Source: Anaerolineales bacterium (GTDB lineage Bacteria; Chloroflexota; Anaerolineae; E26-bin7). From it: DNA of 44,530 nucleotides. The DNA is taken from NCBI GenBank assembly GCA_004377365.1, contig SOHZ01000615.1, positions 1-44,530 of the forward strand, given 5' to 3'. A program made the position numbers and the translations under genes. Position 1 is the stretch's first letter; every line of letters begins with the position of its first letter. Below the pieces are notes generated by a model that made no database searches, had not been told where the DNA came from, and saw only the letters and a program-made list of their open reading frames with translations. Of this stretch, positions 1 through 35,147 are shown one piece after another.

Positions 1-1
1 C

Positions 2-2143
2 GACTTTGAGGACAAGGTGCCGGAGGAGATCAAGGCCGACCTGGAGCAGATCCAGAAGGACATCATGGCCAAGAAGCTGTGGACTGGCTGGGGCGAGCCG
101 CCCGAGGCCGAGGCCGCACCTGCAGAAAAGCTCAAGGTGGCCTTTGTCTATGTGGCTCCTATCGGAGACCTGGGTTGGACCTGGGCCCACGAACAGGGCC
201 GCCTCATGGTGGAAGAGGAACTGGGCGTGGAGACAGCCTACATTGAGAACGTGCCCGAAGGCCCTGATGCTGAACGCGTCATCCGCGACTTTGCCCAGAA
301 AGAGTACGACCTGGTCTTTGCCACCTCATTCGGGTTCATGGATCCCATGGTAACCGTGGCTAGCGAGTTCTCCGACAAGTACTTTGAGCACTGCTCCGGC
401 TACAAGACGGCCGATAACATGGCCACCTACTTCGGGCGGATGTACCAACCGCGCTTCCTGTCGGGCCTGGTAGCGGGCAAGGCCACCCAGGCCAACAAGA
501 TCGGCTATGTGGCCGCCTTCCCCATTCCCGAGGTGCTGCGGGGCATCAACGCCTTCACCTTGGGAGTACGAGAGGCTAACCCCGAGGCCACCGTCCACGT
601 GGTGTGGACCAACACCTGGTTCGACCCTGTCCTGGAGAAGGAGGCAGCCGAGGCCCTGCTGGATCAAGGCTGTGACGTCATCGCCCAGCACCAGGACACC
701 ACCGAGCCCCAGAAGGCAGCCCAGGAGCGAGAAATGGTCAGTATCGGCTACGATTCGGACATGAGCCAGTTCGTGGGCGACACCGTGCTGACCAGTCCGA
801 TCTGGAACTGGGGGCCGTACTACGTGGAACGAACCAAGGCAGTCATGGACGGCACCTGGGAGACCCACCAGTACTGGGGTGGGATGAAGGACGGCATCGT
901 GGATCTGGCCCCCATGAGCGCCAGGGTGCCCGACGACGTGAAGGCCCTGGTGGAGGAGTGGAAGCAAAAGATCCTCAGCGGAGAGTGGGATGTCTTCGTT
1001 GGCCCCATCAAGGGCCAGAACGGTGAGCTCTCCGTGCCGGCTGGCGTGAGCATGACCGACGAGGAGATGCTCAGCATGGACTGGTTCGTGGAGGGCGTGG
1101 TGGGCGAGGCGCCGGGCGAGCCACCTGTGGCCGAGGCCGTACCTGCGGAAAAGCCCAAGGTAGCTTTCGTCTACGTTGGCCCCGTGGGCGATATGGGCTG
1201 GACCTATGCCCATGACCAGGGGCGGCTCTATCTGGAGAAGGAACTGGGCGTGGAGACGGCCTACAGCGAGTTGGTTGCAGAGGGTCCCGACTCAACCCGC
1301 GTCATCCATGACTACGCCGAGAAAGGCTACGATGTGATCTTTGCCACCAGCTTTGGCTACATGGACTCGGTCATCGAGGTAGCTGTCGAATACCCCGACG
1401 CTGTCTTCGAGCACTGCACCGGTTACAAGATAGCTGACAACGCCGGCATCTACGATGGCCGGGGCTATCAAGGTTGGTATCTGTCAGGCATCGTGGCCGG
1501 TAAGATGACCAAGAACAACGTCCTGGGCTACATCGCTCCTTATCCCATCCCCGAGGTAGTGCGCAACATGAACGCCTTCACCTTGGGGGCGCGTTCGGTG
1601 AACCCTGACGTAGAAACGCACATCGTCTGGATCAATACCTGGGTTGACCCGCCCAAGGAACGGGAGGCCGCCCAGGCTCTGGCCGACCTGGGTGCGGACG
1701 TCATCGCCCGCGAGAGCGATTCCACCGAGCCTGATAAACTGGCCCAGGAACTGGGTCTCTACTCTATCGGCTACAATGCTTACGTGCCCGATGCCGCTCC
1801 CGACGCTCTCCTCACCGCGCCTATCTGGAACTGGGGCGTCTTCTACAAGAAGGCGGTGGAGGACGTTATGAACGGCACCTGGACGCCTGAGCCAGTGTGG
1901 TGGGGTCTGAAAGAAGGTCTGCTGGAACTGGCCCCCATTGCTGACTTTGTGCCAGATGACGTCAATGCTCTGGTAGAGGAGAAGAAAGCAGAGATCGTCG
2001 CCGGCGAGTTTGACGTCTTTGTGGGTCCCATCAAGGACAACACCGGCGAACTGCGAGTGCCCGAAGGTGACACCATGACCGACGAGGAAAAGCTGGCCTT
2101 CGATTGGCTGGTCGAAGGCGTGGTGGGCACCATCCCCAAATAG
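2..2143 (+). CDS. BMP-family ABC substrate-binding protein with tandem domains (5' end cut off)
   Basis: Binding protein of a BMP/PnrA-type importer (nucleosides or related ligands), expected outside the membrane. The frame is open from base 2, so the signal peptide and start lie upstream of the window. Two BMP domains of about 340 residues follow each other, starting near bases 131 (KVAFVYVAPIGDLGWTWAH) and 1151 (KVAFVYVGPVGDMGWTYAH). Each has the matching FATSFG, FEHCxGYK, PIPEV, NAFTLG, SPIWNWG or APIWNWG and DVFVGPIK blocks. Near-identical linkers (GEPPEAEAAPAEK, GEPPVAEAVPAEK) precede both. The first 40 codons (VPEEIKADLEQIQKDI) align with the C-terminal helix VPDDVNALVEEKKAEI of the later domains, so a third copy probably lies upstream. 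The gene ends in TAG at 2141-2143 and is followed by a strong hairpin and the ATPase gene. Family assignment is firm; the ligand is unknown. Confidence 0.9.
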   Translation, partial: DFEDKVPEEIKADLEQIQKDIMAKKLWTGWGEPPEAEAAPAEKLKVAFVYVAPIGDLGWTWAHEQGRLMVEEELGVETAYIENVPEGPDAERVIRDFAQKEYDLVFATSFGFMDPMVTVASEFSDKYFEHCSGYKTADNMATYFGRMYQPRFLSGLVAGKATQANKIGYVAAFPIPEVLRGINAFTLGVREANPEATVHVVWTNTWFDPVLEKEAAEALLDQGCDVIAQHQDTTEPQKAAQEREMVSIGYDSDMSQFVGDTVLTSPIWNWGPYYVERTKAVMDGTWETHQYWGGMKDGIVDLAPMSARVPDDVKALVEEWKQKILSGEWDVFVGPIKGQNGELSVPAGVSMTDEEMLSMDWFVEGVVGEAPGEPPVAEAVPAEKPKVAFVYVGPVGDMGWTYAHDQGRLYLEKELGVETAYSELVAEGPDSTRVIHDYAEKGYDVIFATSFGYMDSVIEVAVEYPDAVFEHCTGYKIADNAGIYDGRGYQGWYLSGIVAGKMTKNNVLGYIAPYPIPEVVRNMNAFTLGARSVNPDVETHIVWINTWVDPPKEREAAQALADLGADVIARESDSTEPDKLAQELGLYSIGYNAYVPDAAPDALLTAPIWNWGVFYKKAVEDVMNGTWTPEPVWWGLKEGLLELAPIADFVPDDVNALVEEKKAEIVAGEFDVFVGPIKDNTGELRVPEGDTMTDEEKLAFDWLVEGVVGTIPK

Positions 2144-2376: not shown

Positions 2377-3894
2377 GTGACAGCAGATTCTATCCTTGTA
2401 CAGATGGTCAGCATCGCCAAGCGTTTTCCGGGTGTGCTGGCCAATGACCACATTGACTTTGATGTGAAAGCTGGTGAGATACACGCCCTCCTGGGCGAGA
2501 ACGGTGCCGGCAAAACTACCCTGATGAGCGTCCTCTCGGGCCTGTACCGGGCCGACGAAGGGGAAATTTATATCAAGGGTCAGAAAGTCAACATGCGCTC
2601 GCCTCGCGACGCCATTGACCTGGGCATCGGCATGGTCCACCAGAACTTTATGCTGGTCGAACCGCACACTGTGGCTGAGAACATTACCCTTGGCCTCAAG
2701 ACGCCGCGCTTCTTCCTGGACACGGCCGGCACTGAGCGCCGCATCACAGGACTGTCAAAGCAATATGGCCTGCAAGTAGACCCCCGCGCCCGCATCTGGC
2801 AGCTCTCGGTGGGCGAGCAGCAACGGGTTGAGATCCTGAAGATGCTCTATCGGGGGGCGGACATCTTGGTTCTGGACGAGCCGACAGCAGTGCTGACCCC
2901 ACAAGAGGTAGAGGAACTGTTCGCCACGCTGCGACGCATGGCTGGGGAAGGACAGGCTGTCATTTTCATCAGCCACAAGCTCAATGAAGTGATGGACATC
3001 TCCAACCGGGTGACTGTGCTCCGGCACGGCAAAGTAGTCGCATCAGTAAACACCACCGAAACCAGCAAACAGGAACTGGCCCGCATGATGGTCGGCCGGG
3101 AGGTGCTCTTCCGGGTGGAGAAGAAACCAGTCGAACTGGGCCAGGCTGTTCTAAAAGTCGAGGGGCTGCGAGCGCTGAACGATAAGGGACTTCCGGCCTT
3201 GAAGGACATCTCCTTCACCATTCGAGAGGGAGAGATCCTGGGAGTGGCCGGGGTGGCTGGCAACGGACAGCGGGAATTGGCCGAGGTCATCACCGGCTTG
3301 CGCAAGGCCACCGGCGGCTGTGTATCCATATCCGAATGTGATACGACCCACTGCTCGCCGAGGGAGATCATCCGGCAACAAGTCAGCCACGTGCCGGAGG
3401 ACCGTCTGGGCATGGGCCTGGTTCCCAACCTGGCCGTCAGCGACAACATCATTCTCAAGGGCTATCGCGAGCCCCCCTTGGCCAAAGGCCCGTTCTTGGA
3501 TCGCCTCTCTATCAGGAACTTTGTGGCCAAGCTGATTGAGGCTTTTAACATCGCCACTCCGACTCAGGAAACCCCTGTCCGACTTCTTTCCGGAGGCAAT
3601 CTGCAACGCACCATCTTGGCCCGTGAGATCAGCATCGGGCCTCGTCTGATGGTGGCGGTACATCCTACACGGGGGTTGGACATTGGGGCTACCGAATCGG
3701 TCCGCAACCTCCTCCTGGAACAAAGGGAAAATGGGGCGGCCATTCTGCTGATCGCTGAGGACCTGGACGAGTTACTGGCCCTCAGCGATCGGATCGCCGT
3801 CATGTACGAAGGTAAAATCATGGGCATCGTCCCCGCTGAGGGAGCGGACATCGAACAGATTGGCTTGATGATGGCCGGTTCTAAAAGGACTTGA
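2377..3894 (+). CDS. ABC transporter ATP-binding protein, double-domain (BMP/nucleoside type)
   Basis: Cytoplasmic energy subunit of the importer whose binding protein lies upstream and whose permeases lie downstream. It has 505 residues, usual for RbsA/NupO-like proteins with two fused ABC domains. Domain 1 has Walker A GENGAGKT (residues ~40-47), signature LSVGEQQR (~143) and Walker B DILVLDEPTA (~162). Domain 2 has a degenerate Walker A (GVAGNGQRE, ~292), signature LSGGNLQR (~404) and PTRGLDIGA (~429), so only the first site is expected to have a canonical P-loop, as is normal in this family. The start is GTG at 2377, directly after AGGAGA; an in-frame ATG at 2404 has no good ribosome site. 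Confidence 0.92.
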   Translation: MTADSILVQMVSIAKRFPGVLANDHIDFDVKAGEIHALLGENGAGKTTLMSVLSGLYRADEGEIYIKGQKVNMRSPRDAIDLGIGMVHQNFMLVEPHTVAENITLGLKTPRFFLDTAGTERRITGLSKQYGLQVDPRARIWQLSVGEQQRVEILKMLYRGADILVLDEPTAVLTPQEVEELFATLRRMAGEGQAVIFISHKLNEVMDISNRVTVLRHGKVVASVNTTETSKQELARMMVGREVLFRVEKKPVELGQAVLKVEGLRALNDKGLPALKDISFTIREGEILGVAGVAGNGQRELAEVITGLRKATGGCVSISECDTTHCSPREIIRQQVSHVPEDRLGMGLVPNLAVSDNIILKGYREPPLAKGPFLDRLSIRNFVAKLIEAFNIATPTQETPVRLLSGGNLQRTILAREISIGPRLMVAVHPTRGLDIGATESVRNLLLEQRENGAAILLIAEDLDELLALSDRIAVMYEGKIMGIVPAEGADIEQIGLMMAGSKRT

Positions 3895-3975: not shown

Positions 3976-5082
3976 ATGCCTTACATACTGGTCGTTGAAG
4001 AAGGGAGATCTCGCCTGGTGAAGGAAAAGAAATACAAGGCGGAGAAAGGTGAGGCAACTCTCCAAGACCTTGTAGAGAAGTACCCACATTTGTTACCTCT
4101 GCCCGGCGTCGAGGCAGGTGATCTCGTGATACTGACGGTGCAGCGAGAATACCGTGCAACCGACCTGCTTTGTGTGGATAGCGACGGTGGAGTTATCATC
4201 GTTGAGTGCAAGTTACGAGAGAATCAAACGATGAGAGAGGTGGTAGCCCAACTCTTGGATTACACCTCTACATTGTGGAAAGTCACATACGCTGAATTCA
4301 ACGAGCATATCAAGAGCTATCTCGAAGGGGACATCGCAGAGAAAATGCTGAAGCGCCGTAGAGAAGAGGGCTTGCTCGAAGATGAGGATGAAGAAGAGTG
4401 GAAAGAGGACTTCAGAAACAAACTCATCAACAATTTGCAAACAGGTGCTTTCCGTCTGGTGGTGGTTGCAGATCGCATTCCTGAGGATATCAGAAATGTT
4501 GTCGAGTACTTGTCTTCTCTGTACTCAGTAGAGATCTATTGCGTTGAAGTAGGATACTTCCCCGATAAGAAAGGAGAGAAGTTGGAGATCACTGTCCCAC
4601 ATCTCATCGAATTTGGGAAGAGAAGCGCTTCTGCTCCATCTGCTCAGCCTAGAAGTTGGGATAGAGAATCATTTTTGGAGATTTGTCAACAGAGAGGCGG
4701 CACCAAAAGAAGAGAGAGCATTGAGAACTTGATTACCTTTGGAGAAGAACTGGAGAGAGAGGGAACAGGGATATGCACTTATGGAAGGAGCGTAAGTGGG
4801 AGCTTTATCTTCAGGAACATAGATGAACGCATGGTTTTCACCCTATACTCAAATGGATCCGTACATATGCACTTTCACAGAGTGCTTGGTGCGGATGACG
4901 TGGTCTTGGAAGAGTACATGGACAAATTAAATGCTTTACCCATTTTCCGCTATGCTCCTCAAAAGGATATAGATCACTCTCGCGGGAGTAAGAAGAAAGT
5001 GGAAGCCCTTGCCCCAGAGGAGATTGAGCAATTCAAAGAAATCGTCAGATGGTTTCTTCCCAAAACAACAACGCAGACATAG
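3976..5082 (+). CDS. PD-(D/E)XK nuclease-like protein
   Basis: This 368-residue protein has a restriction-endonuclease-fold core: ATDLLCVDSDGGVIIVECKL gives the D63...E77-x-K79 triad seen in NucS/DUF91-like and related PD-(D/E)XK proteins. It is followed by helical segments and FRLVVVADRIPEDIRNVVEYL, typical of a widespread uncharacterised nuclease-like family. The C-terminal ~140 residues (from SWDRESFLEICQQRGG) form a second domain that I cannot name. It starts at ATG 3976 after TAAGGAG. Its GC content is visibly lower than that of its neighbours, and it has no evident link to transport although it sits between the ATPase and permease genes, so an insertion is likely. The nuclease fold is well supported; activity and target are unknown. 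Confidence 0.7.
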   Translation: MPYILVVEEGRSRLVKEKKYKAEKGEATLQDLVEKYPHLLPLPGVEAGDLVILTVQREYRATDLLCVDSDGGVIIVECKLRENQTMREVVAQLLDYTSTLWKVTYAEFNEHIKSYLEGDIAEKMLKRRREEGLLEDEDEEEWKEDFRNKLINNLQTGAFRLVVVADRIPEDIRNVVEYLSSLYSVEIYCVEVGYFPDKKGEKLEITVPHLIEFGKRSASAPSAQPRSWDRESFLEICQQRGGTKRRESIENLITFGEELEREGTGICTYGRSVSGSFIFRNIDERMVFTLYSNGSVHMHFHRVLGADDVVLEEYMDKLNALPIFRYAPQKDIDHSRGSKKKVEALAPEEIEQFKEIVRWFLPKTTTQT

Positions 5083-5121
5083 AGAGATGCACGCGGTGTG
5101 CAAAAGCTAGGAGGTGGTGAG

Positions 5122-5355
5122 ATGCTGACGAGTGTGCGAGGGATCTACAAAGACAGAAAGATTGAGCTATATGAGAAGATCACCGGCATTGAGACCGCTG
5201 AGGTCATCGTGACATTCATCCCTTCGGAAGACCGGGGAGTTGACCTGAGAGCGCGTGGATTCACTACAGAACTGGCTTCTGAGCTCCGACAAAGGTTGCT
5301 GACCTTCGAAGAAGACTGGAATGCGCCGGGGATGGAAGCCTATAACAAGTTATAA
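5122..5355 (+). CDS. Small antitoxin-like protein
   Basis: A 77-residue protein starting MLTSVRGIYKDRKIELYEK, with the pattern 'xxxxRGIYKxGKIELxE...VIVTF...RGFxxxxAxELRxRLxTFxEDWxxPxMxxYxxL' of small antitoxin-like proteins (DUF104/VapB-like group) often found beside PIN or MazF-type toxins. The ATG at 5122 is chosen because AGGAGGTG lies 6-12 bases upstream; a GTG at 5098 would translate the ribosome site. No recognisable PIN or MazF toxin is adjacent. The partner could be the nuclease-like gene upstream (39 bases away), or this could be an orphan. The toxin-antitoxin role is an inference. Confidence 0.6.
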   Translation: MLTSVRGIYKDRKIELYEKITGIETAEVIVTFIPSEDRGVDLRARGFTTELASELRQRLLTFEEDWNAPGMEAYNKL

Positions 5356-5388: not shown

Positions 5389-6564
5389 ATGACGATACCA
5401 CTAAAGATAGAGAAACGTTTGACCCCCTCTCGCACGGCCAGTTTCCTGGTGCCTTTCATCTCCCTTCTCTTAGCGCTGATCTTTGGGGGTATCATCCTGT
5501 TAACGGCCGGAGCCAACCCGCTGACAACCTACAAAGCCATGTTCCTGGGAGCCTTCGGCAGCAAGTACAGTCTTTCGGAGACGATGGTTAAGGCTATCCC
5601 CCTGATGTTGTGCGGGCTGGGAGTCTCCATTGCCTTCCGCATGCTGTTCTGGAACATTGGGGCTGAAGGGCAACTAGCTGTGGGCGGGATCGCCGCTGCC
5701 GGGGTGGCCCTTTTTGGGGCCGAGTGGTTGCCGGCGGCTCTGCTCTTGCCGGCAATGTTTGTGGCTGGTTTCGTGGCCGGAGCGCTGTGGGGGCTGGTGC
5801 CAGCCCTGCTGAAAGCCTTCATCCGGGTCAACGAGATCATCACCACCCTGATGATGAACTACATCGCTATCCTCTGGGTGGAGTATCTCTTCTACGGCCC
5901 CTGGAAAGACCCGGCCGGCTATGGCTTCCCCGGCACGGCCCAGTTTCCCGAAGCAGGCTGGTTGCCGCGCTTGCCCGGCACCCGCCTTCACCTGGGGCTG
6001 GCCTTTGCCATCGTGGCTGCTATTTTTATCTGGCTCGTCCTGGGACGTACTAAATGGGGCTACGAGATTCGGGTCATCGGTGAAAACCCTCGGGCGGCTA
6101 CCTACGCTGGCATCAGCCTGATGCGGAACATCATTTTGGTGATGGTTCTCAGCGGCGGCCTGGCTGGATTGGCGGGCATGGCCGAGGTGTCCGGCATCGC
6201 CCACCGCTTGCAGAAGGGGTTGACAGTAGGCTACGGATACACAGCCATCATCGTAGCCTGGCTGGGCAAGCTGAACCCGTTGGGTGTGCTATTGGTGGCG
6301 ATCCTGCTGGCCGGCCTGCTGGTAGGGGGTGATCAGATTCAGATCACCATGCAGCTCCCGGCCGCTGTGGCCCCGATCTTGCAGGGTGCTATTCTCTTCT
6401 TCATGCTGGGGGGTGAGCTTTTCACCCGTTACCGTCTGCGATGGGAATGGAAGCCCACTGAAAGCAAAACCCTCGGCCCATCGCCGCTTAAACCAGGGCA
6501 GTGTCCTGAGCTCTGTCCTGAGCCTGTCGAAGGGCCTGTCGAAGGGAGGGAAGGTGGATCATGA
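5389..6564 (+). CDS. ABC transporter permease (BMP/nucleoside type), first subunit
   Basis: Integral membrane subunit of the importer, 391 residues, with many hydrophobic helices and family blocks such as FWNIGAEGQLAVGGIAAAGV, NEIITTLMMNYIAI and VIGENPRAATYAGI. It is a BmpC/NupP-like member of the branched-chain amino acid/ribose permease superfamily. The cytoplasmic C-terminal tail (about residues 372-391) contains PEPVEGPVEG, the translation of a REP-like element, and is probably not functional protein. Its TGA overlaps the ATG of the next permease by 4 bases (ATGA), so translation is coupled. Together with the downstream permease it forms the heterodimeric channel. Confidence 0.9.
   Translation: MTIPLKIEKRLTPSRTASFLVPFISLLLALIFGGIILLTAGANPLTTYKAMFLGAFGSKYSLSETMVKAIPLMLCGLGVSIAFRMLFWNIGAEGQLAVGGIAAAGVALFGAEWLPAALLLPAMFVAGFVAGALWGLVPALLKAFIRVNEIITTLMMNYIAILWVEYLFYGPWKDPAGYGFPGTAQFPEAGWLPRLPGTRLHLGLAFAIVAAIFIWLVLGRTKWGYEIRVIGENPRAATYAGISLMRNIILVMVLSGGLAGLAGMAEVSGIAHRLQKGLTVGYGYTAIIVAWLGKLNPLGVLLVAILLAGLLVGGDQIQITMQLPAAVAPILQGAILFFMLGGELFTRYRLRWEWKPTESKTLGPSPLKPGQCPELCPEPVEGPVEGREGGS
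6503..6546 (+). repeat. REP-like palindromic element in frame at the 3' end of the permease gene
   Basis: GTCCTGAGCTCTGTCCTGAG is followed by CCTGTCGAAGG and a second CCTGTCGAAGG. The core CCTGAGCCTGTCGAAGG (6517-6533) is the imperfect palindrome known from intergenic and in-frame REP-like repeats in many bacteria, which leave the peptide PVEG in proteins. Here the half-palindromes appear duplicated. Confidence 0.7.
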
Positions 6565-7538
6565 ATCTCATCTCTTCCATCTTGACTTTACTCTTCACCC
6601 CTTCCACCCTGGCTGCCACTGTCCGAGGCGGCACGTCGTTGCTATACGCCACCCTGGGCGAGATTTTCACCGAACGTTCGGGCATCCTGAACCTGGGAGT
6701 GGAGGGGCTGATGATCATGGGGGCCGTAACCGGCTTTGCAGCGGCTTTCAAAACAGGCAACGTTTGGGTCGGTGTTGTTACCGGCACAATAGCAGGCGGG
6801 TTGCTGGCCTTGATCCATGCCTTTCTGACCATCACCCTGCGCGCTGATCAGACGGTCAGCGGCTTGGCCCTGACCCTTTTCGGCAGTGGCCTGGCTAGCT
6901 TCCTCGGCCAACGGCTGGGTCCGGGGGGCACACCTCTGGTCGGTCAGATTGGCCCCAAGTTTGGGAAACTGCCCATACCTGGTCTCTCGGACATCCCTTT
7001 CTTTGGCCAGGCCCTCTTTCAACAGGACATCCTGGTTTATGCCGTATACCTGCTGGTGCCTCTGGCCTGGTATTTTCTCTACAAGACTCGACCAGGCCTA
7101 CACTTGCGAGCTGTGGGCGAGAATCCCCAGACGGCCGATGCGATGGGGGTCAGCGTAGCCAATACACGTTATCTGTACACTGTCGCCGGCGGGATGCTGG
7201 CGGGACTGGGGGGTGCTCACCTCTCCCTGGCCTATACTCCCGGGTGGACTGAGGGCATGACCGCTGGTCGTGGCTGGATCGCCATCGCCCTGGTCATTTT
7301 CGCCACCTGGGACCCGGTGCGAGCTGTGGTAGGAGCTGTCCTCTTCGGAGCGATCAATGCCATACAGCTCCGTCTGCAAGCGCAGGGGACAACCATCCCG
7401 GCCGCTTTCCTCAACATGATGCCTTATATTTTCACCATCCTGGTGTTGGTCGTCATCACCTGGTGGGAGGCTTTCAGCAGGCGGGTGGGCGCACCTGCTG
7501 CTCTGGGCCTGCCTTACGTGAGAGAGGAGAAAGGATAG
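6561..7538 (+). CDS. ABC transporter permease (BMP/nucleoside type), second subunit
   Basis: Second membrane subunit of the importer, 325 residues, BmpD/NupQ-like. Recognisable blocks are GGTSLLYATLGEIFTERSG, LNLGVEGLMIMGAVTGF, ADQTVSGLALTLFG, LRAVGENPQTADAMGVSV and GRGWIAIALVIFATWDPVRA, with about 8-9 hydrophobic segments. ATG at 6561 overlaps the stop of the upstream permease by 4 bases. It is the last gene of the transporter operon and is followed by a bidirectional stem-loop that separates it from the convergent fabF. Confidence 0.92.
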   Translation: MNLISSILTLLFTPSTLAATVRGGTSLLYATLGEIFTERSGILNLGVEGLMIMGAVTGFAAAFKTGNVWVGVVTGTIAGGLLALIHAFLTITLRADQTVSGLALTLFGSGLASFLGQRLGPGGTPLVGQIGPKFGKLPIPGLSDIPFFGQALFQQDILVYAVYLLVPLAWYFLYKTRPGLHLRAVGENPQTADAMGVSVANTRYLYTVAGGMLAGLGGAHLSLAYTPGWTEGMTAGRGWIAIALVIFATWDPVRAVVGAVLFGAINAIQLRLQAQGTTIPAAFLNMMPYIFTILVLVVITWWEAFSRRVGAPAALGLPYVREEKG

Positions 7539-24178: not shown

Positions 24179-24504
24179 ACTACTTCACCCCCTGCAATCG
24201 GCTTCAGCGCCAAATAAGCTGTTCTGACAAATCCTTCCGAAGCCGTATAGCGTATGACGACAACCCTATAGAGATTGGAATATTTCCCCTCTGTAACCCC
24301 AAGGCGATAGAACAAATTGGTATCGGCCCGCTTATCACTTTGCAGAATATCATCCAGGGCATTTATGGCCACTTTAATGGCTTCCAGATGTTTAGCCATA
24401 GCCGGGTGACCTACGAGAATATGGCTTTCCCATCGCTCTCTGGTTAGGGTGGTTGGAGTGCCATCTTTGTCCGGGATGGTGAACAAGATTTCTTTTGCTC
24501 TCAA
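24157..24504 (-). CDS. Putative toxin-like nuclease, possibly of the PBECR/RelE-like group
   Basis: A 115-residue protein: MRAKEILFTIPDKDGTPTTL, then RERWESHILVGHPAMAKHLE, a segment with periodic Asp/Ile and FYRLG, and a C-terminal beta pattern (LYRVVVIRYTASEGFVRTAY, GGEVVWIKP). The layout resembles small phage-Barnase-EndoU-RelE-like nucleases found beside DUF2283 genes, but the assignment is tentative. TTG start at 24504 overlaps the stop of the HdrA gene by 4 bases (TTGA), with GGAGGG upstream. The candidate antitoxin is the DUF2283 half of the next gene. Confidence 0.5.
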   Translation of the reverse strand: MRAKEILFTIPDKDGTPTTLTRERWESHILVGHPAMAKHLEAIKVAINALDDILQSDKRADTNLFYRLGVTEGKYSNLYRVVVIRYTASEGFVRTAYLALKPIAGGEVVWIKPKL

Positions 24505-27500
24505 GCCATCACGCCCTCCGCGAACAGCGCTTCTTCTTTGGCAATCATCTGCTCATCGCGATAGTGTTGCAGTTGGATGGCTTTGGCCGGACATTCGGCG
24601 GCACAGGAGCCGCAACCCTGGCAAGCAGCCGCCGCAATCTCGGCCGCACCCAGGATGCCTCCTGCTCCTACTTTACTGGGATTCATCTGGGGCACGTCGT
24701 AGGAACAGATGCGCACGCAAGTCAGGCAGCCGGTGCATTTCTCCTCATCCACCACGGCCACCACTCCACCCACCTGGAGCACATCTTTGGAGAGAATGGT
24801 CGTGGCCCGGGCAGCAGCAGCGTTGGCCTGAGCGATAGTCTCGTCAATGAACTTGGGGTAGTGGGCTGCGCCGCAGAGGAAAATGCCCTCTGCCGGAAAG
24901 TCCACCGGGCGCAGCTTGACGTGGGCTTCCAAGAAGAACCCCTCCAGTGTGCAGGAAAACTTGAGGAGTTCGGCCAACTCCTGACTGCCCTCGCTCGGCA
25001 CCATCGCTTCAGATAAGACCAGCAGGTCCGGCTTCAACGCGATAAAAGCTTGCAGGACTGGATCGTTGACGGTCACCTGCAACTGGCCGTTGTTTCTCTG
25101 CACCTTGGGCTTGTTCTCATCGTCGTAACGCAAGAAAATCACGCCCTCATCACGCGCCTGGGTGTAGAGAGCCTCCTTGAAGCCATAGGTGCGCATATCT
25201 TTGTAAAGGATGTAGACACTGGTTCCTGGGTTACGCTTCTTGATGGCCATCGCGTTTTTGATGGCCACTGTGCAGCAGACGCGGCTACAATAAAAGTCGG
25301 GGGCGTCGTCACCACCGTCGTCCCAGGGACCGACGCATTGTATCATCACCACGGAGCGGCAGGCGTCAAGGGTCATGGCAGCCCGCTCCCCTTCTGCTCC
25401 CTCTGACTGGTCTGCCTTCGCCAGAAGCTGCTCCAAATCGTCCTGGGTGACGACTTTGTCCTGGCCCAGCAGATACGCGCTGCCCCGGTACTCCCGCCCA
25501 CCGGTAGCTACGATGGTCACCCCATGCTCGATAAGGCGCCGGGTGGGGTCGTCCACGCTGGCTACAGTGGTCTTGAAATTGCCCACAAAGCCGCCGGATT
25601 TGGCCACCTCGTAGCCGGTCAGCACCTCGATGCGTAGGTTGGCCTGGACCTTGCCTATCAGTTCTCTCAAGTAGGCTTGCGGGTCGCCACCGTTGGCGGT
25701 GTAGTAAATGTGGCGCAATCGCCCGCCCAGCTCCCGCTTCCGCTCCACCAAATAGACTCCGAAGCCCTGCTCGGCCAGGTTCAGGGCCGCCGCCATACCA
25801 GCCACGCCACCGCCTATCACCAACGCCTCGTGGCTCAGGCTCTGGGGCTCGGTGTAGAGGGGCATCAGCAGACGCGAGCGTCCCACCGCCATGCGCGTCA
25901 GGTCTTTGGACTTGACCGTGGCCGCCTCAGGCTCACCGGAGTGTACCCAGGAGCATTGGTCACGGATATTGGCCATCTCGAACAGGTAAGGATTCAGCCC
26001 GGCCTCGCGGATGGTGTCGCGGAAGAGGGGCTCGTGGGTACGTGGCGTACACGATGAGACGATGACTCGGTTCAACTTGTGTTCGGCGATGCGTTCCTGG
26101 ATGAGCTTCAGCGAGTCGGCTGAGCAGGTGTAAATGGTGTTCTCGGCATGGACCACGTCGGGTAGGGTCCTGGCGTACTCGACGACTTGATTCACGTCTA
26201 CCACGCCGGCGATATTGGAGCCGCAACTGCAAACAAAGACCCCGATGCGTGGCTCCTCGTCTTCGAGCCAGGCCACCTCCGGCGGGTAGACCTTCTCCGT
26301 GACCAGCGTGCCGCGCGCATGGCCGATGGTGGTCAGCGCTGCTGCAGCCGCGCCCGAGGCCTCGATGACGCTCTCGGGGATGTCCTTGGGCTCGGCGAAG
26401 GTGCCGCACACGTAGACGCCCGGCCGAGTGGTTTCCACCGGGTGGAAGGGGTTCCGACGGCAAAAGCCCCGCTCGTCCCGTTCGATGCCTACCGTCTGGG
26501 CCAGCTTCCGGGCGTCGGGTGGGGGCTCCAGGCCCACGCTGAGCACCATCAGGTCGAACTTCTCCTCCCGTAAGGTTGAGCCCTGCTGGTACTCTTCAGG
26601 CTGGTAACGGACGATGATGTCCCTGGTTTTTGGGTCCTCTTTGAGCGACGAAATGCGGCAACGGATGTACTGGATGCCTAACTCCTTGCCCCGCTCGAAG
26701 TAGGCATCGAAGCCCTTGCTGAAGGCCCGCATGTCCATCTGGAAGATGTGGCACTGGACGCCTGGCATGTGCTCCAGGGCCAGCATGGCCTCCTTGGTGG
26801 CGTACATGCAGCACACGGAAGAGCAATAATCGTGCTCCTGATCACGGGAGCCGACGCATTGCAGGAAGGCGATACGCTTGGGCTCCTTCTGGTCCGACGG
26901 CCGGAGCACGTGGCCGTCGGTGGGCCCTGAGGCGCACGCGAGGCGCTCGAGCTGCAGGCTGGTCACCACGTTGGGGTAGCGCTCGAAGCCGTACTCCTCG
27001 GCCAGGCGGGCGTCGTAGGGCTTGTAGCCAGGGGCCAGGATGACCGCTCCGACCTTCAACTCCTCGAGGCGGTCAACGTCGTCGTAGTTGATGGCTCCTC
27101 GCTGGCAAGCGATGACGCACTCGCCGCACTCGGAGCACACCCCGCAGTTGAGGCAGCGGGCGGCCTCGGCCAGGGCCATTCTCTCGGTGTAGCCCATGTC
27201 CACTTCCAGGAAGCGTTCCACCCGCTCCTCCAGGGGCAGCAGAGGGCGGGGCACACGAGGCGTAGGGACGACCTCGCCGCGCTGCACCTTCTCCTGTGCT
27301 TCTTCCCTGGTCCACTCTACGACCGGTGGCTTTGGCTTGGGTGGTTGCTTCAACGGTTCGCCACGCAGGTAACGGTCAATGGAGGTGGCTGCCTGGTGGC
27401 CCATGGCGATGGCGTTGATGATAAGGCCTGCGCCGGGTACTCGACCGGGGCCGGCGAAGATGCCTGGCACGTGGGTGGCCAACGTTTCTGCGTCACCCAG

Positions 27501-29003
27501 GTAGGTATCTGGCGTGCAATCCATGTACCATCGGTCCGACGACTGGCCCAGGGCGCGGATGACGGTATCTACCTCCAAGATGAACTCCGTGCCAGGCACG
27601 GGCTTTGGCTCCTCCCGGCCGCGGGTCTTGGTCTCGGCGCACTCCAGGCTAGCCACGCGGCCGTTATCGCCCAGGATGCACAAGGGCATGGCCCACTGGA
27701 TGAGTCGCACCCCCTCGTTCTCTGCCTCAGCCAGTTCCCAGCCGTAGGCTGGTATCTCGCCCCGGCCACGACGGTAGATGAGGGACACCTCCTTGGCTCC
27801 CAGGCGCAGGGCAGTGGTGGCTGCATCCACAGCCGTGATGCCCCCGCCGACGACAGCCACCCTCTCACCTACCCCTTCCATCTTGCCCAGGCTAACATCG
27901 CGCAGCAGGGCAATGGCCGAGACCACGCCTTTCAGGTCTTCGCCCTCGATGTTCAGGCGGGGCTCTCCGTAGGTGCCAACAGCAAGGTAGACGGCCTGGT
28001 AACCCATGTCGAACAGCTCCATCGGGTCACGAATGGGGCTGTTGAGCTTGAGTTCCACGCCCAGGGCCAAGATGTCGGCGATGTCGCGGCGCAACACGTC
28101 TTTAGACAGCCGATACTCAGGGATGCCTACCCGCATCATGCCGCCCGGTTCGGGTAGGGCCTCGAAGACCGTCACCCCGTAGCCCATCTTGACCAGGTCC
28201 TGGGCGGCAGTCAACCCCGCTGGGCCAGCCCCGACGATGGCCACCCACTCGTCACGGGTGCGGGGCAGCTTCTCGGGAGGCGGTAGGTAGCCCAGGTAAA
28301 CGCGGTCGGTCACGAAGCGCTTGAGGGCCTGGATGGCCACTGGCTCGTCAATGTAGCGGCGGTTGCAACGCCCCTCGCAGGGGTGGTGGCAGGTGCGCCC
28401 GCAGACAGTGGCGAAGGGGATGCGCTCCCTGATCAGACGCAGGGCGTCGGCGTAGCGCCGCTGTTGGATAAGGGCGATATAACCCTGAGCGCTAACGCCG
28501 GCTGGGCAGGCGTTGGTGCAAGGGGCTCGCCCTTTCCTCTCAACGATGAAGGCGTTGGGCACTGCCTGAGCGTAAGGGCGATAGATGGCCTTGCGGGTCT
28601 GCAAGCCCTCGTTGAACTCGTCGGGTACTTCCACCGGACAGACGGCGGTGCACTCGTTACAACTGGTGCACTCGTTGATGTCCACATAGCGGGCCTTGCG
28701 CAGCACAGTGGCCGTGAAATCGCTGGCCTGGCCCTCAAGTCTGGTCAGCTCGGCGTTGGTGATGATCTCGATGTTACGATGGCGGCCGGCCTCCACCAGC
28801 TTGGGGGAGAGGATGCACATGGCACAGTCGTTGGTGGGGAAGGTCTTGTCCAACTGGGCCATCTTGCCCCCAATGGCCGGACTCTTCTCTACCAGGTAGA
28901 CCTTGATACCCGATTCGGCCAGGTCCAAAGCGGCCTGCACGCCAGCGATACCGCCGCCCACGACCAAAGCTGCACCGATCTTCTCTGTGTCTTCTGATAC
29001 CAT
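24501..29003 (-). CDS. Giant HdrA with an embedded GltD-like NAD(P)H-binding module
   Basis: A 1500-residue flavin/iron-sulfur protein. Residues ~1-150: HdrA FAD domain (VVGGGIAGVQAALDLAESG, PTNDCAMC) with CTSCNECTAVCP. Residues ~156-550: GltD-like unit with CTNACPAGV, CGRTCHHPCEGRCNRR, FAD motif GAGPAGLTAA and NAD(P)H motif VVGGGITAVDAA. Residues ~616-640: ferredoxin CGVCSECGECVIAC. Then the HdrA core (CVGSRDQEHDYCSSVCCMYA; FVCSCGSNIAG ~922; SSCTPRTHEPLF). Residues ~1058 on: second FAD domain (VIGGGVAGMAAALNLAEQG). C-terminus: CTGCLTCVRIC and CQGCGSCAAECP. It lies between mvhD copies. It probably brings in NAD(P)H electrons and could bifurcate through its flavins (inference). HdrA family is certain; partners are inferred. 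Confidence 0.9.
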   Translation of the reverse strand: MVSEDTEKIGAALVVGGGIAGVQAALDLAESGIKVYLVEKSPAIGGKMAQLDKTFPTNDCAMCILSPKLVEAGRHRNIEIITNAELTRLEGQASDFTATVLRKARYVDINECTSCNECTAVCPVEVPDEFNEGLQTRKAIYRPYAQAVPNAFIVERKGRAPCTNACPAGVSAQGYIALIQQRRYADALRLIRERIPFATVCGRTCHHPCEGRCNRRYIDEPVAIQALKRFVTDRVYLGYLPPPEKLPRTRDEWVAIVGAGPAGLTAAQDLVKMGYGVTVFEALPEPGGMMRVGIPEYRLSKDVLRRDIADILALGVELKLNSPIRDPMELFDMGYQAVYLAVGTYGEPRLNIEGEDLKGVVSAIALLRDVSLGKMEGVGERVAVVGGGITAVDAATTALRLGAKEVSLIYRRGRGEIPAYGWELAEAENEGVRLIQWAMPLCILGDNGRVASLECAETKTRGREEPKPVPGTEFILEVDTVIRALGQSSDRWYMDCTPDTYLGDAETLATHVPGIFAGPGRVPGAGLIINAIAMGHQAATSIDRYLRGEPLKQPPKPKPPVVEWTREEAQEKVQRGEVVPTPRVPRPLLPLEERVERFLEVDMGYTERMALAEAARCLNCGVCSECGECVIACQRGAINYDDVDRLEELKVGAVILAPGYKPYDARLAEEYGFERYPNVVTSLQLERLACASGPTDGHVLRPSDQKEPKRIAFLQCVGSRDQEHDYCSSVCCMYATKEAMLALEHMPGVQCHIFQMDMRAFSKGFDAYFERGKELGIQYIRCRISSLKEDPKTRDIIVRYQPEEYQQGSTLREEKFDLMVLSVGLEPPPDARKLAQTVGIERDERGFCRRNPFHPVETTRPGVYVCGTFAEPKDIPESVIEASGAAAAALTTIGHARGTLVTEKVYPPEVAWLEDEEPRIGVFVCSCGSNIAGVVDVNQVVEYARTLPDVVHAENTIYTCSADSLKLIQERIAEHKLNRVIVSSCTPRTHEPLFRDTIREAGLNPYLFEMANIRDQCSWVHSGEPEAATVKSKDLTRMAVGRSRLLMPLYTEPQSLSHEALVIGGGVAGMAAALNLAEQGFGVYLVERKRELGGRLRHIYYTANGGDPQAYLRELIGKVQANLRIEVLTGYEVAKSGGFVGNFKTTVASVDDPTRRLIEHGVTIVATGGREYRGSAYLLGQDKVVTQDDLEQLLAKADQSEGAEGERAAMTLDACRSVVMIQCVGPWDDGGDDAPDFYCSRVCCTVAIKNAMAIKKRNPGTSVYILYKDMRTYGFKEALYTQARDEGVIFLRYDDENKPKVQRNNGQLQVTVNDPVLQAFIALKPDLLVLSEAMVPSEGSQELAELLKFSCTLEGFFLEAHVKLRPVDFPAEGIFLCGAAHYPKFIDETIAQANAAAARATTILSKDVLQVGGVVAVVDEEKCTGCLTCVRICSYDVPQMNPSKVGAGGILGAAEIAAAACQGCGSCAAECPAKAIQLQHYRDEQMIAKEEALFAEGVMA

Positions 29004-31935: not shown

Positions 31936-34900
31936 TCAAGTTGCCAGCCACTGGCCCAATGCTGCCTGATCTCTGATCATCACCTGGTCATCGTGATAGT
32001 GACGCAGTTGGATGGCATTGGCTGGGCACTCGCTGGTGCAGGTGCCGCAGCCGGTGCACTTGGCCGGCTCGATGTAGGCCGCTCCCACAATATCTCCCAC
32101 TCCAATAGCTCCTTGCTGAATGGCAGGGATTTGGGAGGGACAGGTCCGCACGCAGGTCAGGCAGCCTACGCATTTGCTCTGGTCCACCTCGGCGATGACA
32201 GCGCCTAGCTCCAGGATGTCCTTGCCGAGAATGGTCATGGCCCGGCCGGCCGTGGCCAGGGCGTGGGCGATGGTCTCCTCCATGAACTTGGGATAGTGGG
32301 CCAGGCCGCAGAGGAAAATCCCCTCCTCAACAAAGTCCATGGGCCTCAGCTTGAGGTGCGCTTCCATGAAAAAGCCTTCACGGGAGAGGGGCAGGTTCAT
32401 GATACGAGCCAGCTCGCGGTTGGTCTCGCCCGGGGCGGTGGCCATGCTCAAGGCCAGGAGGTTGGGGTGGAACACCAGTTTATCTCCCATGATGAGGTCT
32501 TCCACCGTTACTCGCAAACTCCCGTAGACGACGCGCACATCGGGCTTGCTCTCGTCGGTGTATCGCAGAAAGATGACCCCCCGCTGGCGGGCTTCGGTGT
32601 AGTATTGCTCGCGGAAGCCATAGGTGATGAGGTCTTTGTAGAGGACGTAGACCCGACAGTCGGGGTTCAGTTTCTTGATAGCGATGGCGTTCTTCATGGT
32701 GTTGGTGCAACAGGTACGGCTACAATAATCGGCTTCTTCACCATAGGGGCGCACGCACCCGATCATCACCACTTCGTCGAGTTTGGCGATCTCTTCAGGC
32801 TCCTCGACGATGCGCTTCTCCATCTCCAATTGGGTGAGCACACGCGGGTCCAGGCCATGCAGGTACTGCGTGCCCTGATACTCCTGGGCGCCAGTGGCTA
32901 CGATGGCCACGCCGTGCTCAAATTCCCGCTCCTGGGGCCCTCGGCCATTCCCATTGCTGCACAGGACCGATTTAAAGTTGCCCACGTGCCCGCTGAAATT
33001 CACCAATTGGGTGTTCTTGTAGATGTCTATGCGCTCGTGACACTCCACCTGCTTGACCAGAGAGCGGAGGAGGCGCTGCGGGTCAGGTCCCTCGGCGGTG
33101 TAGTGTATGTTGCGCAGATTCCCGCCCAACTGATCCCCTTTCTCTATCAAGCAGACGTCGAACCCCTCATCGGCGATGGTCAGGGCGGCCGTCATCCCAG
33201 CCAGGCCCCCACCGATGACCAGCGCCTTGTGATTGAAAATCCAGCTAGTCTTGTGCACTGGCTGCAGGAGCCGCGCCCGGGCTGCCCCTATCCTCACCAG
33301 TTCCTCGGCTTTGCGCGTGGCGCCCCTGGGGTCGTCGTAGTGTACCCAGGCGCAATGGTCCCGGATGCTGACGAATTCCAGCAGGTAGGGGTTGAGACTC
33401 AACTGGCGCAGGATGGCTTGAAAGAGGGCCTCGTGGGTGCGGGGAGTGCAGGCTGCCACCACCACCCGGTTGAGATTGTGCTCCTTGATGGCAGCCTTGA
33501 TCTCTTCCAGCCCTTCGGGCAGGCAGGCCCAGATCACGTTCTGGGCATGGACTACGTCCGGCAGACCCTTAGCATACTCCACCACGGCTGGCACATCCAC
33601 CACCTCGGTTATGTTGGTCCCACAGTGGCAGGCAAAGACGCCCACCCGTGGCGGTTCGTCACTGACGTCTCGCTCCAGCGGGTAGTTCAGTTCTGTCAGC
33701 CGGTTGCCCCGTATCCCCGTCAGATGTCGCACCTGCCGTTCCCCGGTCAAACGGATGGCCGTTGACATGGTGCCCTGAGCTCCTGAGAGGAGCCTCATAG
33801 CCCGTGCCGCAGCCCCACTGGCGTCAATCACTGTCTCGGCGATCTCTTTGGGCTGGGAAAAGGCACCCGCCACAAAAACGCCCGGCCGGCTGGTATCCAA
33901 GGGCTCAAATTTGTCCGTCAGGCAAAAGCCGTACTCGTTGAGCTCGATACCCAAATCCTGGGCCAGGGTCACGGCTTTGGGAGGTGGCTCACTGCCCACA
34001 GCCAGCACAACCATGTTGAAGCGATCTTCGCGCAGTTCGCCCTTTTCATCTTGATAATGGATGAAAAGGTCATGCGTAAGGGGCTCTTCCCTGATGCCTG
34101 AGATGCGGCAACGGGTGTACTGCACCCCCCACGTATCCCTGGCTTGCTCGTAGTAGGCGTTGTACTCCTTACTGAAGGCTCGCTCGTCCATCATAAAGAC
34201 CTGGCAATGTACCCCAGGGACGCGCTGTTTGGCCAGCACCGCCTCTTTGGTGGCGTACATGCAGCAGATGGACGAACAGTAGCTATGCTCCTGATCACGC
34301 GAGCCGACGCATTGAATCCAGGCGATGCGCTGGGGCAGAGCCCCATCAGAGGGACGCTGCATGATGCCCTCAGTGGGTCCCGAGCGGCTGGCCAGGCGCT
34401 CGTACTCCAGCCCGGTGACCACGTTGGGATAGCGTCCGTAGCCCAATTCCTCGGCCGGCCGGGGGTCGTACAGCTTGTATCCCACACTCAAGATGATGGC
34501 TCCTACCTGGATCTCCTCGTACCATGGCTCCTCGTCCAGGTTGATAGCTTTGGTAGGGCAGACCTCCTCACACTTGCGGCAGTCCAGGCAGTACTCGCCC
34601 TTCTCCACCAGATAGGCATTGGGGATAGCCCGTGGCGCTACTTTGTAGACTGCCTTGTGGGTGGCAAATCCCATCTGGAATTTGTCGGGCAAGTCCACCG
34701 GGCACATCTTGCTGCACTCGTCACAGGAGACACAGGTGCGAACGTTCACGTAACGGGGGTTATGGACGACGGTTGCCTTAAAGTCGCCCGGAATCCCTTC
34801 TACCCCCACGATTTCGGTAAGCGTCATCAACTCGATGTTGGGATGGGGACTAAAGTCCAGCAGCGCCGGACTGATGGAAGGCCGCGTGCAACCGTAGCCA

Positions 34901-35100
34901 TGATCAGGCGTGCCAGAGCACAGCACGCAGTCGTGGGTAGGGAACATGAAACCCAACTGGGCAACGACTCCACCAATAGCAGGCAAAATCTCAACCAGAT
35001 ATACTTTGTAGCCAGAGTCAGCCAAATCAACGGCGGCCCTCATGCCGCCGACGCCGCCTCCGACTACCATCACTGCTCCGATTTTCTGTCTTTGAACCAC
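31936..35100 (-). CDS. HdrA-type protein with two FAD domains and C-terminal ferredoxin clusters
   Basis: A 1054-residue flavin/iron-sulfur protein, first gene of the Hdr operon. N-terminal FAD site (VVGGGVGGMRAAVDLADSG) and PTHDCVLC with an extra segment GYGCTRPSISPALL. Ferredoxin motifs CVSCDECSKMCP and CLDCRKCEEVCP. HdrA core CVGSRDQEHSYCSSICCMYA, FACHCGTNITE and AACTPRTHEALF. Second FAD domain (VIGGGLAGMTAALTIADEG). C-terminal CVGCLTCVRTCP and CTGCGTCTSECP. GTG at 35100 is used because GAGGAG lies 7 bases upstream; a GTG at 35115 is the alternative. It has no GltD insert, unlike the HdrA at 24501-29003. It probably supplies the core of the MetFV-Hdr complex or a second one. Confidence 0.9.
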   Translation of the reverse strand: MVQRQKIGAVMVVGGGVGGMRAAVDLADSGYKVYLVEILPAIGGVVAQLGFMFPTHDCVLCSGTPDHGYGCTRPSISPALLDFSPHPNIELMTLTEIVGVEGIPGDFKATVVHNPRYVNVRTCVSCDECSKMCPVDLPDKFQMGFATHKAVYKVAPRAIPNAYLVEKGEYCLDCRKCEEVCPTKAINLDEEPWYEEIQVGAIILSVGYKLYDPRPAEELGYGRYPNVVTGLEYERLASRSGPTEGIMQRPSDGALPQRIAWIQCVGSRDQEHSYCSSICCMYATKEAVLAKQRVPGVHCQVFMMDERAFSKEYNAYYEQARDTWGVQYTRCRISGIREEPLTHDLFIHYQDEKGELREDRFNMVVLAVGSEPPPKAVTLAQDLGIELNEYGFCLTDKFEPLDTSRPGVFVAGAFSQPKEIAETVIDASGAAARAMRLLSGAQGTMSTAIRLTGERQVRHLTGIRGNRLTELNYPLERDVSDEPPRVGVFACHCGTNITEVVDVPAVVEYAKGLPDVVHAQNVIWACLPEGLEEIKAAIKEHNLNRVVVAACTPRTHEALFQAILRQLSLNPYLLEFVSIRDHCAWVHYDDPRGATRKAEELVRIGAARARLLQPVHKTSWIFNHKALVIGGGLAGMTAALTIADEGFDVCLIEKGDQLGGNLRNIHYTAEGPDPQRLLRSLVKQVECHERIDIYKNTQLVNFSGHVGNFKSVLCSNGNGRGPQEREFEHGVAIVATGAQEYQGTQYLHGLDPRVLTQLEMEKRIVEEPEEIAKLDEVVMIGCVRPYGEEADYCSRTCCTNTMKNAIAIKKLNPDCRVYVLYKDLITYGFREQYYTEARQRGVIFLRYTDESKPDVRVVYGSLRVTVEDLIMGDKLVFHPNLLALSMATAPGETNRELARIMNLPLSREGFFMEAHLKLRPMDFVEEGIFLCGLAHYPKFMEETIAHALATAGRAMTILGKDILELGAVIAEVDQSKCVGCLTCVRTCPSQIPAIQQGAIGVGDIVGAAYIEPAKCTGCGTCTSECPANAIQLRHYHDDQVMIRDQAALGQWLAT

Positions 35101-35147
35101 AGTGTTGCTCCTCACGCCAAAATTCTAGTCCGGTCTCCAAGTCAAAG

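Follow-up and report, generated by a model that had tools for sequence, protein, structure and literature searches.

Binding proteins of the BMP family (Bmp, PF02608) carry one head as a rule, and importers of the PF02653 type are the kind that goes with such heads. AtzT of Pseudomonas sp. ADP (6pi5), the Brucella melitensis protein 3s99, PnrA, BmpD and Lbp are all single-headed. AtzT binds guanine with a KD of 110 nM via Tyr45, Ser97, Phe98, Glu165, Trp194, Asn218 and Asn220, and Asn169 and Thr139 lie close to the ligand (PMC6834077). Linked heads are known from another binding-protein family: in GlnPQ of Lactococcus lactis, two tandem domains bind independently and compete to dock on one translocator (PMC8025302). 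For the Anaerolineae, no description of multi-headed binding proteins was found among the titles listed from the open-licence literature, of which those on GlnPQ and OpuA come nearest. We consider it fairly likely that a frame at the start of a contig of an Anaerolineales bacterium constitutes the 3′ portion of a longer gene whose product is a three-headed binding protein with a lipid anchor; each head would take its own ligand and dock in turn on the importer encoded downstream. The likeness to GlnPQ lies in two linked heads of different specificity that serve one importer (PMC8025302). In GlnPQ, however, the heads are fused to the permease, whereas here the binding-protein frame ends at position 2143 and would yield a separate lipoprotein, the permeases being encoded by separate genes. 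By analogy the protein may work like GlnPQ, yet it is no member of that type.

The window, i.e., the whole stretch of DNA analysed, is an entire contig of 44,530 nucleotides (C443 of genome G000). Its first frame (2..2143, + strand, 713 amino acids, stop codon at 2141-2143) is open from the first base of the contig. PF02608 occurs twice in the product (Pfam; 402.6 bits against a cut-off of 24.1, E 1.2e-120), and each of the two heads, scored singly, exceeds the curated cut-off. With limits taken from a profile built for the analysis, the first of them, D1, spans residues 42-371 (125..1114) and the second, D2, residues 383-712 (1148..2137), with a flexible linker of residues 372-382 (1115..1147) in between. 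An AlphaFold2 model based on 8 sequences (pLDDT 84.7, pTM 0.50) contains two confident heads, and pLDDT falls below 50 at residues 1-4, 25-40 and 371-382. Foldseek ranks AtzT (TM 0.92-0.94 on target) and 3s99 (0.94) at the top for the modelled heads; by sequence, the nearest solved chain is 3s99 for D1 and AtzT 6pi5 for D2. These two proteins share the fold of D1 and D2 at about 50% identity, but each has a single head. The first-pass annotation had predicted at least two tandem BMP domains here and had called BMP proteins normally single-domain, and both statements were borne out: two complete PF02608 heads are present, and among 78 loci two- or three-head frames occurred only in L038-L045, all of Chloroflexota. 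On the same distribution, the idea that two heads are the usual BMP form was rejected. Plasmid BMP matches (20 of 572 records) occupy places of about 1 kb and were taken as single-headed from that span.

Could the tandem be an assembly artefact of a single-head gene? The first-pass annotation had itself named a tandem-repeat misassembly as an outcome that would count against it, and most of the genomes concerned are drafts, many of them metagenomic, with some tandem copies elsewhere 100% identical. However, D1 and D2 have 59-60% protein identity, and 651 of 999 aligned bases (65%) are the same, so the pair is neither a collapsed nor a duplicated exact repeat. A match at 1e-90 was found in 84 of 396 genomes of the class, and in 24 of the 396 (the window's own included; 15 families) a single stop-free match holds both heads in one frame, for example at 50-52 kb of a 145 kb contig (C32) in G015. 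The artefact has practically no probability and is refuted for D1-D2; the two-head protein is not an artefact.

The pair takes several forms within the class. One of the 24 genomes, G209, lacks the beginning of D1; beyond the 24, both heads are spanned in G176 with a stop inside. The frames of G071 and G083 are D1-D1-D2 triples in which the doubled D1 is 97.6-100% identical, and in G153 a longer N-terminus that matches no family stands before the two heads. Separate genes for D1 and D2, lying next to each other, are found in the two genomes opened of genus g126 (family f38) and in the sister species of the window's (G001). In a quick tree of 93 domains, all 27 D2 rows fall into a single clade (SH-aLRT 100), in which separate forms sit among fused ones at two places; the D1 rows do not form a single clean clade, the first head of G002 being placed elsewhere, with long branches. 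The tree holds 93 of 148 rows, most of the omitted ones being single-headed and from other phyla; in it AtzT and 3s99 are marked as long branches that meet, and their placement was not used. The simplest reading is that D1-D2 would be an old fusion, of two binding proteins using one importer, which was split at least twice; repeated fusion of D1 and D2 is a possible, less simple alternative.

The pocket residues of the two heads are W59, S109, F110, R151, E177, G181, W206, H230 and D232 in D1, and W400, S450, F451, W492, E518, N522, W547, E571 and D573 in D2. Both keep S97, F98, E165 and W194 of AtzT, and in both Y45 is changed to W and N218 and N220 are replaced; at Y45, T139, N169, N218 and N220 of AtzT, D1 has W/R/G/H/D and D2 W/W/N/E/D. 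Across the D1-D2 tandems, all 25 distinct D1-type domains have R/G/H at sites 139/169/218 and all 24 D2-type domains have W/N/E, counting identical domains once and dropping those shorter than 280 residues, the incomplete first head of G209 among them. Three separate D2 genes have W/N/E as well. R/G/H is also the commonest combination in single-head proteins (61 of 93, several phyla), and the window's D1 agrees with 3s99 at 9 of 10 compared sites. The tandems of G080 and G104 (family f16) are of another make, with K/H/G followed by R/G/H. The comparison of units that the first-pass annotation had called for thus finds D1 and D2 consistently different at three sites, and the pair, as read from the sequences, combines two distinct conserved pockets. 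Since R/G/H stands against W/N/E at three variable pocket sites, the specificities of D1 and D2 probably differ. Their ligands are probably purine-like, although the residues that differ from AtzT could accommodate non-purine ligands in D1 and D2. Inspection by eye of the ORFs of five relatives gave no ligand clue from neighbouring genes.

These pockets bear on the choice, left open by the first-pass annotation, between more local capture and combined specificities, and for D1 and D2 they favour different specificities over more of the same. It is quite unlikely that the heads are redundant and that their sole effect is a higher local capture of a single ligand for a single permease pair. All three heads are of the BMP family, and identity is high both in the doubled D1 of G071 and G083, where more of the same fits too, and in other BMP tandems, where it reaches 100%; against this, D1 and D2 differ at the three sites in every D1-D2 tandem examined, and the separate D2 genes keep their own combination.

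What precedes D1? In 12 two-head relatives, the alignment begins only at query residues 31-37, and residues 1-33 (2..100), in which a helix is modelled at residues 8-26, are therefore extra; a flexible linker of residues 34-41 (101..124) follows. Window positions 1-107 are identical at 104 of 107 bases to positions 98-204 of contig C215 of the same genome, including all of the first 39, and beyond this stretch the two sequences part ways; the three differences, read by eye, are all synonymous. On C215, the tail is joined to a binding head that has no Pfam match and for which NCBIfam gives a weak likeness, far under the cut-off, to carbohydrate-binding proteins, and two BPD_transp_1 permeases follow this fusion gene. 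Residues 1-48 of the window's frame are 69% identical to a complete head on contig C113 of the sister species, where the tail ends a full head of the classical BMP type some 17 kb into the contig. The frame there is complete (762 residues, BMP and Peripla_BP_6), and its BMP part best matches Lbp 7x0r, the structure title of which includes guanosine, with PnrA and BmpD matching too. Because the same tail is found on C215 and on the BMP head of C113, the assignment of the N-terminus as the tail of a third BMP head, of the PnrA/Lbp-like subfamily, is strongly supported. Of the probable third domain of the first-pass annotation, the presence of a tail thus stands, but not its nature as a copy of the AtzT-like D1 or D2: a further AtzT-like unit was rejected on the match with C113. 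The full relative of the third head in the sister species is nearest to Lbp, and the window holds the tail only.

It is very unlikely, and disfavoured, that the protein has two heads only and owes its first 33 residues to a chimera at the contig end. In favour of this, ~100 bases at the very start of a contig encode these residues, the assembly is a draft (88.8% complete, 7.1% contaminated), the 39 initial bases are shared with C215, and complete two-head relatives (e.g., L118) have a signal peptide and a linker at that place. On the other hand, the frame is kept, the three synonymous differences from C215 mark a distinct copy, a matching 5′ end that leads into a head of this kind is present on contig C231 of the window's genome, and a fused head of this sort also occurs in another gene of the sister species. 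In the window's genome, the third-head type is seen with its 5′ end twice, at the end of C222 and at the start of C231, and with its 3′ end twice, at the start of C215 and at that of the window; all four lie at contig ends, which would be explained if two similar copies of this head had broken the assembly. No contig of the assembly was found to hold the body of the third head, and its junction to the window is thus unseen. A start with a signal peptide right before D1, which according to the first-pass annotation would speak against a third head, was not found in the window's genome; it is present in the sister species, which has no first head on its separate D1 and D2 genes. The extra first head would have been added at the linker in the window's species and not in its sister, although the direction of this change is inferred.

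Where would the three-headed gene begin? For C231, 240 bases of flank plus the signal peptide were compared with 13 gene starts from both species and two relatives, with 200 shuffles each. The score was 71 with the sister's D1 gene (best of 200 shuffles, 14) and 39 with the D1-D2 gene of G058 (shuffles, 14.5); the remaining 11 gene starts scored 12-22, close to shuffles, and for G007, which is the nearest relative by identity, the D1-D2 gene did no better than shuffles (14.0, shuffle maximum 17.0). The flank alone scored 24 with the sister's D1 gene and a weak 15 with G058, in both cases with 0 of 200 shuffles as high. An earlier comparison, which covered the linker and head start common to other genes and had shuffles on the flank only, gave 72.5 with C113 of the sister against 91.5 with the D1 gene. 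The putative lipoprotein signal peptide on C231 reads MNKKLWAILALVTIVAMVAVACGPK and, judged by eye, its end resembles a lipobox. Farther upstream, C231 carries a gene for a cNMP-binding/bPH_2 protein, relatives of which lie upstream of the tandem gene in only two genomes, G022 and G058 (33 loci, many with short flanks). The 5′ region on C222 is 75% identical over 301 nt to C113 of the sister, and the MFS gene on C222 is 86% identical to the one at that locus; by these sequences C222 is the start of the other, C113-like gene. With C222 so assigned and the flank and signal peptide matching the sister's D1 gene, C231 very probably carries the beginning of the window's gene. The upstream extension proposed in the first-pass annotation thus yields a likely 5′ end on C231 but not the join, as the head body that would lie between C231 and the window is in no contig found.

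Downstream of the frame on the + strand lie an ATPase subunit with two ABC_tran domains (2377..3894; PF00005 twice) and two BPD_transp_2 (PF02653) permease subunits (5389..6564 and 6561..7538) with homologues in relatives, i.e., an adjoining ATPase and permease pair of the BMP-type importer. Of 16 genomes compared (18 entries, as two genomes were entered twice), 14 have an ATPase homologue behind the tandem or paired gene; in the remaining two, G040 and G153, the sequence breaks off at the contig end 119 bases and ~1.5 kb past the gene, respectively. The window also contains, between its ATPase and first permease genes, frames of 368 and 85 amino acids (3976-5082 and 5098-5355, +) without a Pfam match and without a homologue in the 17 other entries of the comparison; by eye, the longer one has a nuclease-like ECK motif. 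Farther along, on the - strand, the starts of frames of 1500 and 1059 amino acids (24504-29003 and 31939-35115) resemble HdrA-type flavoproteins by eye.

A possible outline of how the protein works is as follows. A lipoprotein signal peptide and a proline-rich linker would be followed by a PnrA/Lbp-like nucleoside head, then D1, then D2. Each head would close on its own ligand, probably a purine base in D1 and D2 and probably a nucleoside in the first head, and, by analogy with GlnPQ, the heads would dock one after another on the single ATPase/two-permease importer encoded downstream. This would widen the range of substrates open to the importer and keep the local concentration of heads high. 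The single permease pair assumed in the first-pass annotation fits the window and its relatives, but related fusions of BMP with a sugar- or LivJ-type head lie beside the permeases that belong to the family of this other head. This touches on a reading we hold to be unlikely, namely that some of the heads do not feed this importer and act as a sensor, as a cell-wall spacer or for an importer encoded elsewhere. Heads of the first type occur in fusions with a LivJ-type head (G001) and with a carbohydrate-type head (C215), next to BPD_transp_2 and BPD_transp_1 permeases, and one relative combines a protein kinase with Peripla_BP_6 and BMP; against it, the importer in the window is of the PF02653 type and the ATPase follows the gene as described above. 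For mixed-family heads beside one importer, the second head is not explained by the outline, and sensing, spacing and feeding of a distant importer are options.

Multi-headed binding proteins appear to be a wider habit of the class. The search for further multi-BMP proteins suggested by the first-pass annotation was productive: 14 two-Bmp frames were found in 11 of 31 class genomes (1e-10). In 30 genomes of other phyla (1e-10), hand-picked from the 78 loci and of unstated completeness, there was none, though all 30 have an AtzT-like BMP gene (Fisher p = 2e-4, 11/31 versus 0/30), and one of 53 genomes of other Chloroflexota classes had such a frame at a cut-off (1e-40) stricter than the 1e-10 used elsewhere. 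The habit is uneven within the class, since seven other members (families f27 and f4; 1e-40) have no double-BMP frame. Domain scans of 26 long frames revealed BMP with another binding family (Phosphonate-bd, SBP_bac_8/1, SBP_bac_5) in 22, the remaining four being two triples, one BMP pair and one BMP with ~700 unassigned residues; as the frames were picked by length, they give no estimate of the frequency of mixed fusions. Among the 22 is a 968-residue frame (L185, G271:C43, 2667-5570) of protein kinase, Peripla_BP_6 and BMP, perhaps a kinase with extracellular binding heads. A scan of eight proteins added BMP with Peripla_BP_6, and SBP_bac_8 with two BMP. Taken together, the partners of BMP in these mixed proteins are heads of phosphonate, peptide, sugar or LivJ type.

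Other families are involved as well. The window's genome has Peripla_BP_6 with SBP_bac_5 (L248, C278, 937-3774), Peripla_BP_6 twice (L250, C431, 2271-4640), Peripla_BP_4 three times (L251, C337, 551-3373) and SBP_bac_1 twice (L252, C643, 340-3249); of the frames that match Peripla_BP_6, 1 of 13 here and 2 of 11 in the sister species are tandems. The BMP pairs measured have 54.6-100% protein identity, as if duplication were continuing. In two frames (L222, G001:C709, 1199-3559; L204, G228:C30, 2158-4245), the DNA of the tandem heads is 100% identical over 1017 and 930 bases, respectively, from very recent duplication, gene conversion or an assembly effect. At the end of its contig, another frame (L253, G001:C663, 3-1445) begins to repeat the first residues of its own head and is probably another tandem broken by assembly. 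As judged from the linker sequences, the added head of the window's protein lies between the signal-peptide linker and D1, which suggests recombination at proline-rich linkers. It can be proposed, as a tentative idea with somewhat less than an even chance, that the heads of Anaerolineae are cassettes: heads of the same or different ABC families would be joined, duplicated and split at proline-rich linkers, would combine specificities and may serve several importers.

The component parts are of known kinds; what looks new is the multi-headed form itself, free and often mixed, together with its bias to one class. In contrast to the permease-fused domains of GlnPQ, these are free multi-headed binding lipoproteins, often with heads of unrelated families. 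Two questions thereby become testable: how do unlike heads compete for one permease, and can one protein feed importers of different families? As separate adjacent genes, pairs, triples and mixed-family proteins form a graded series within the class, the gain and loss of fusions would be traceable in close relatives.
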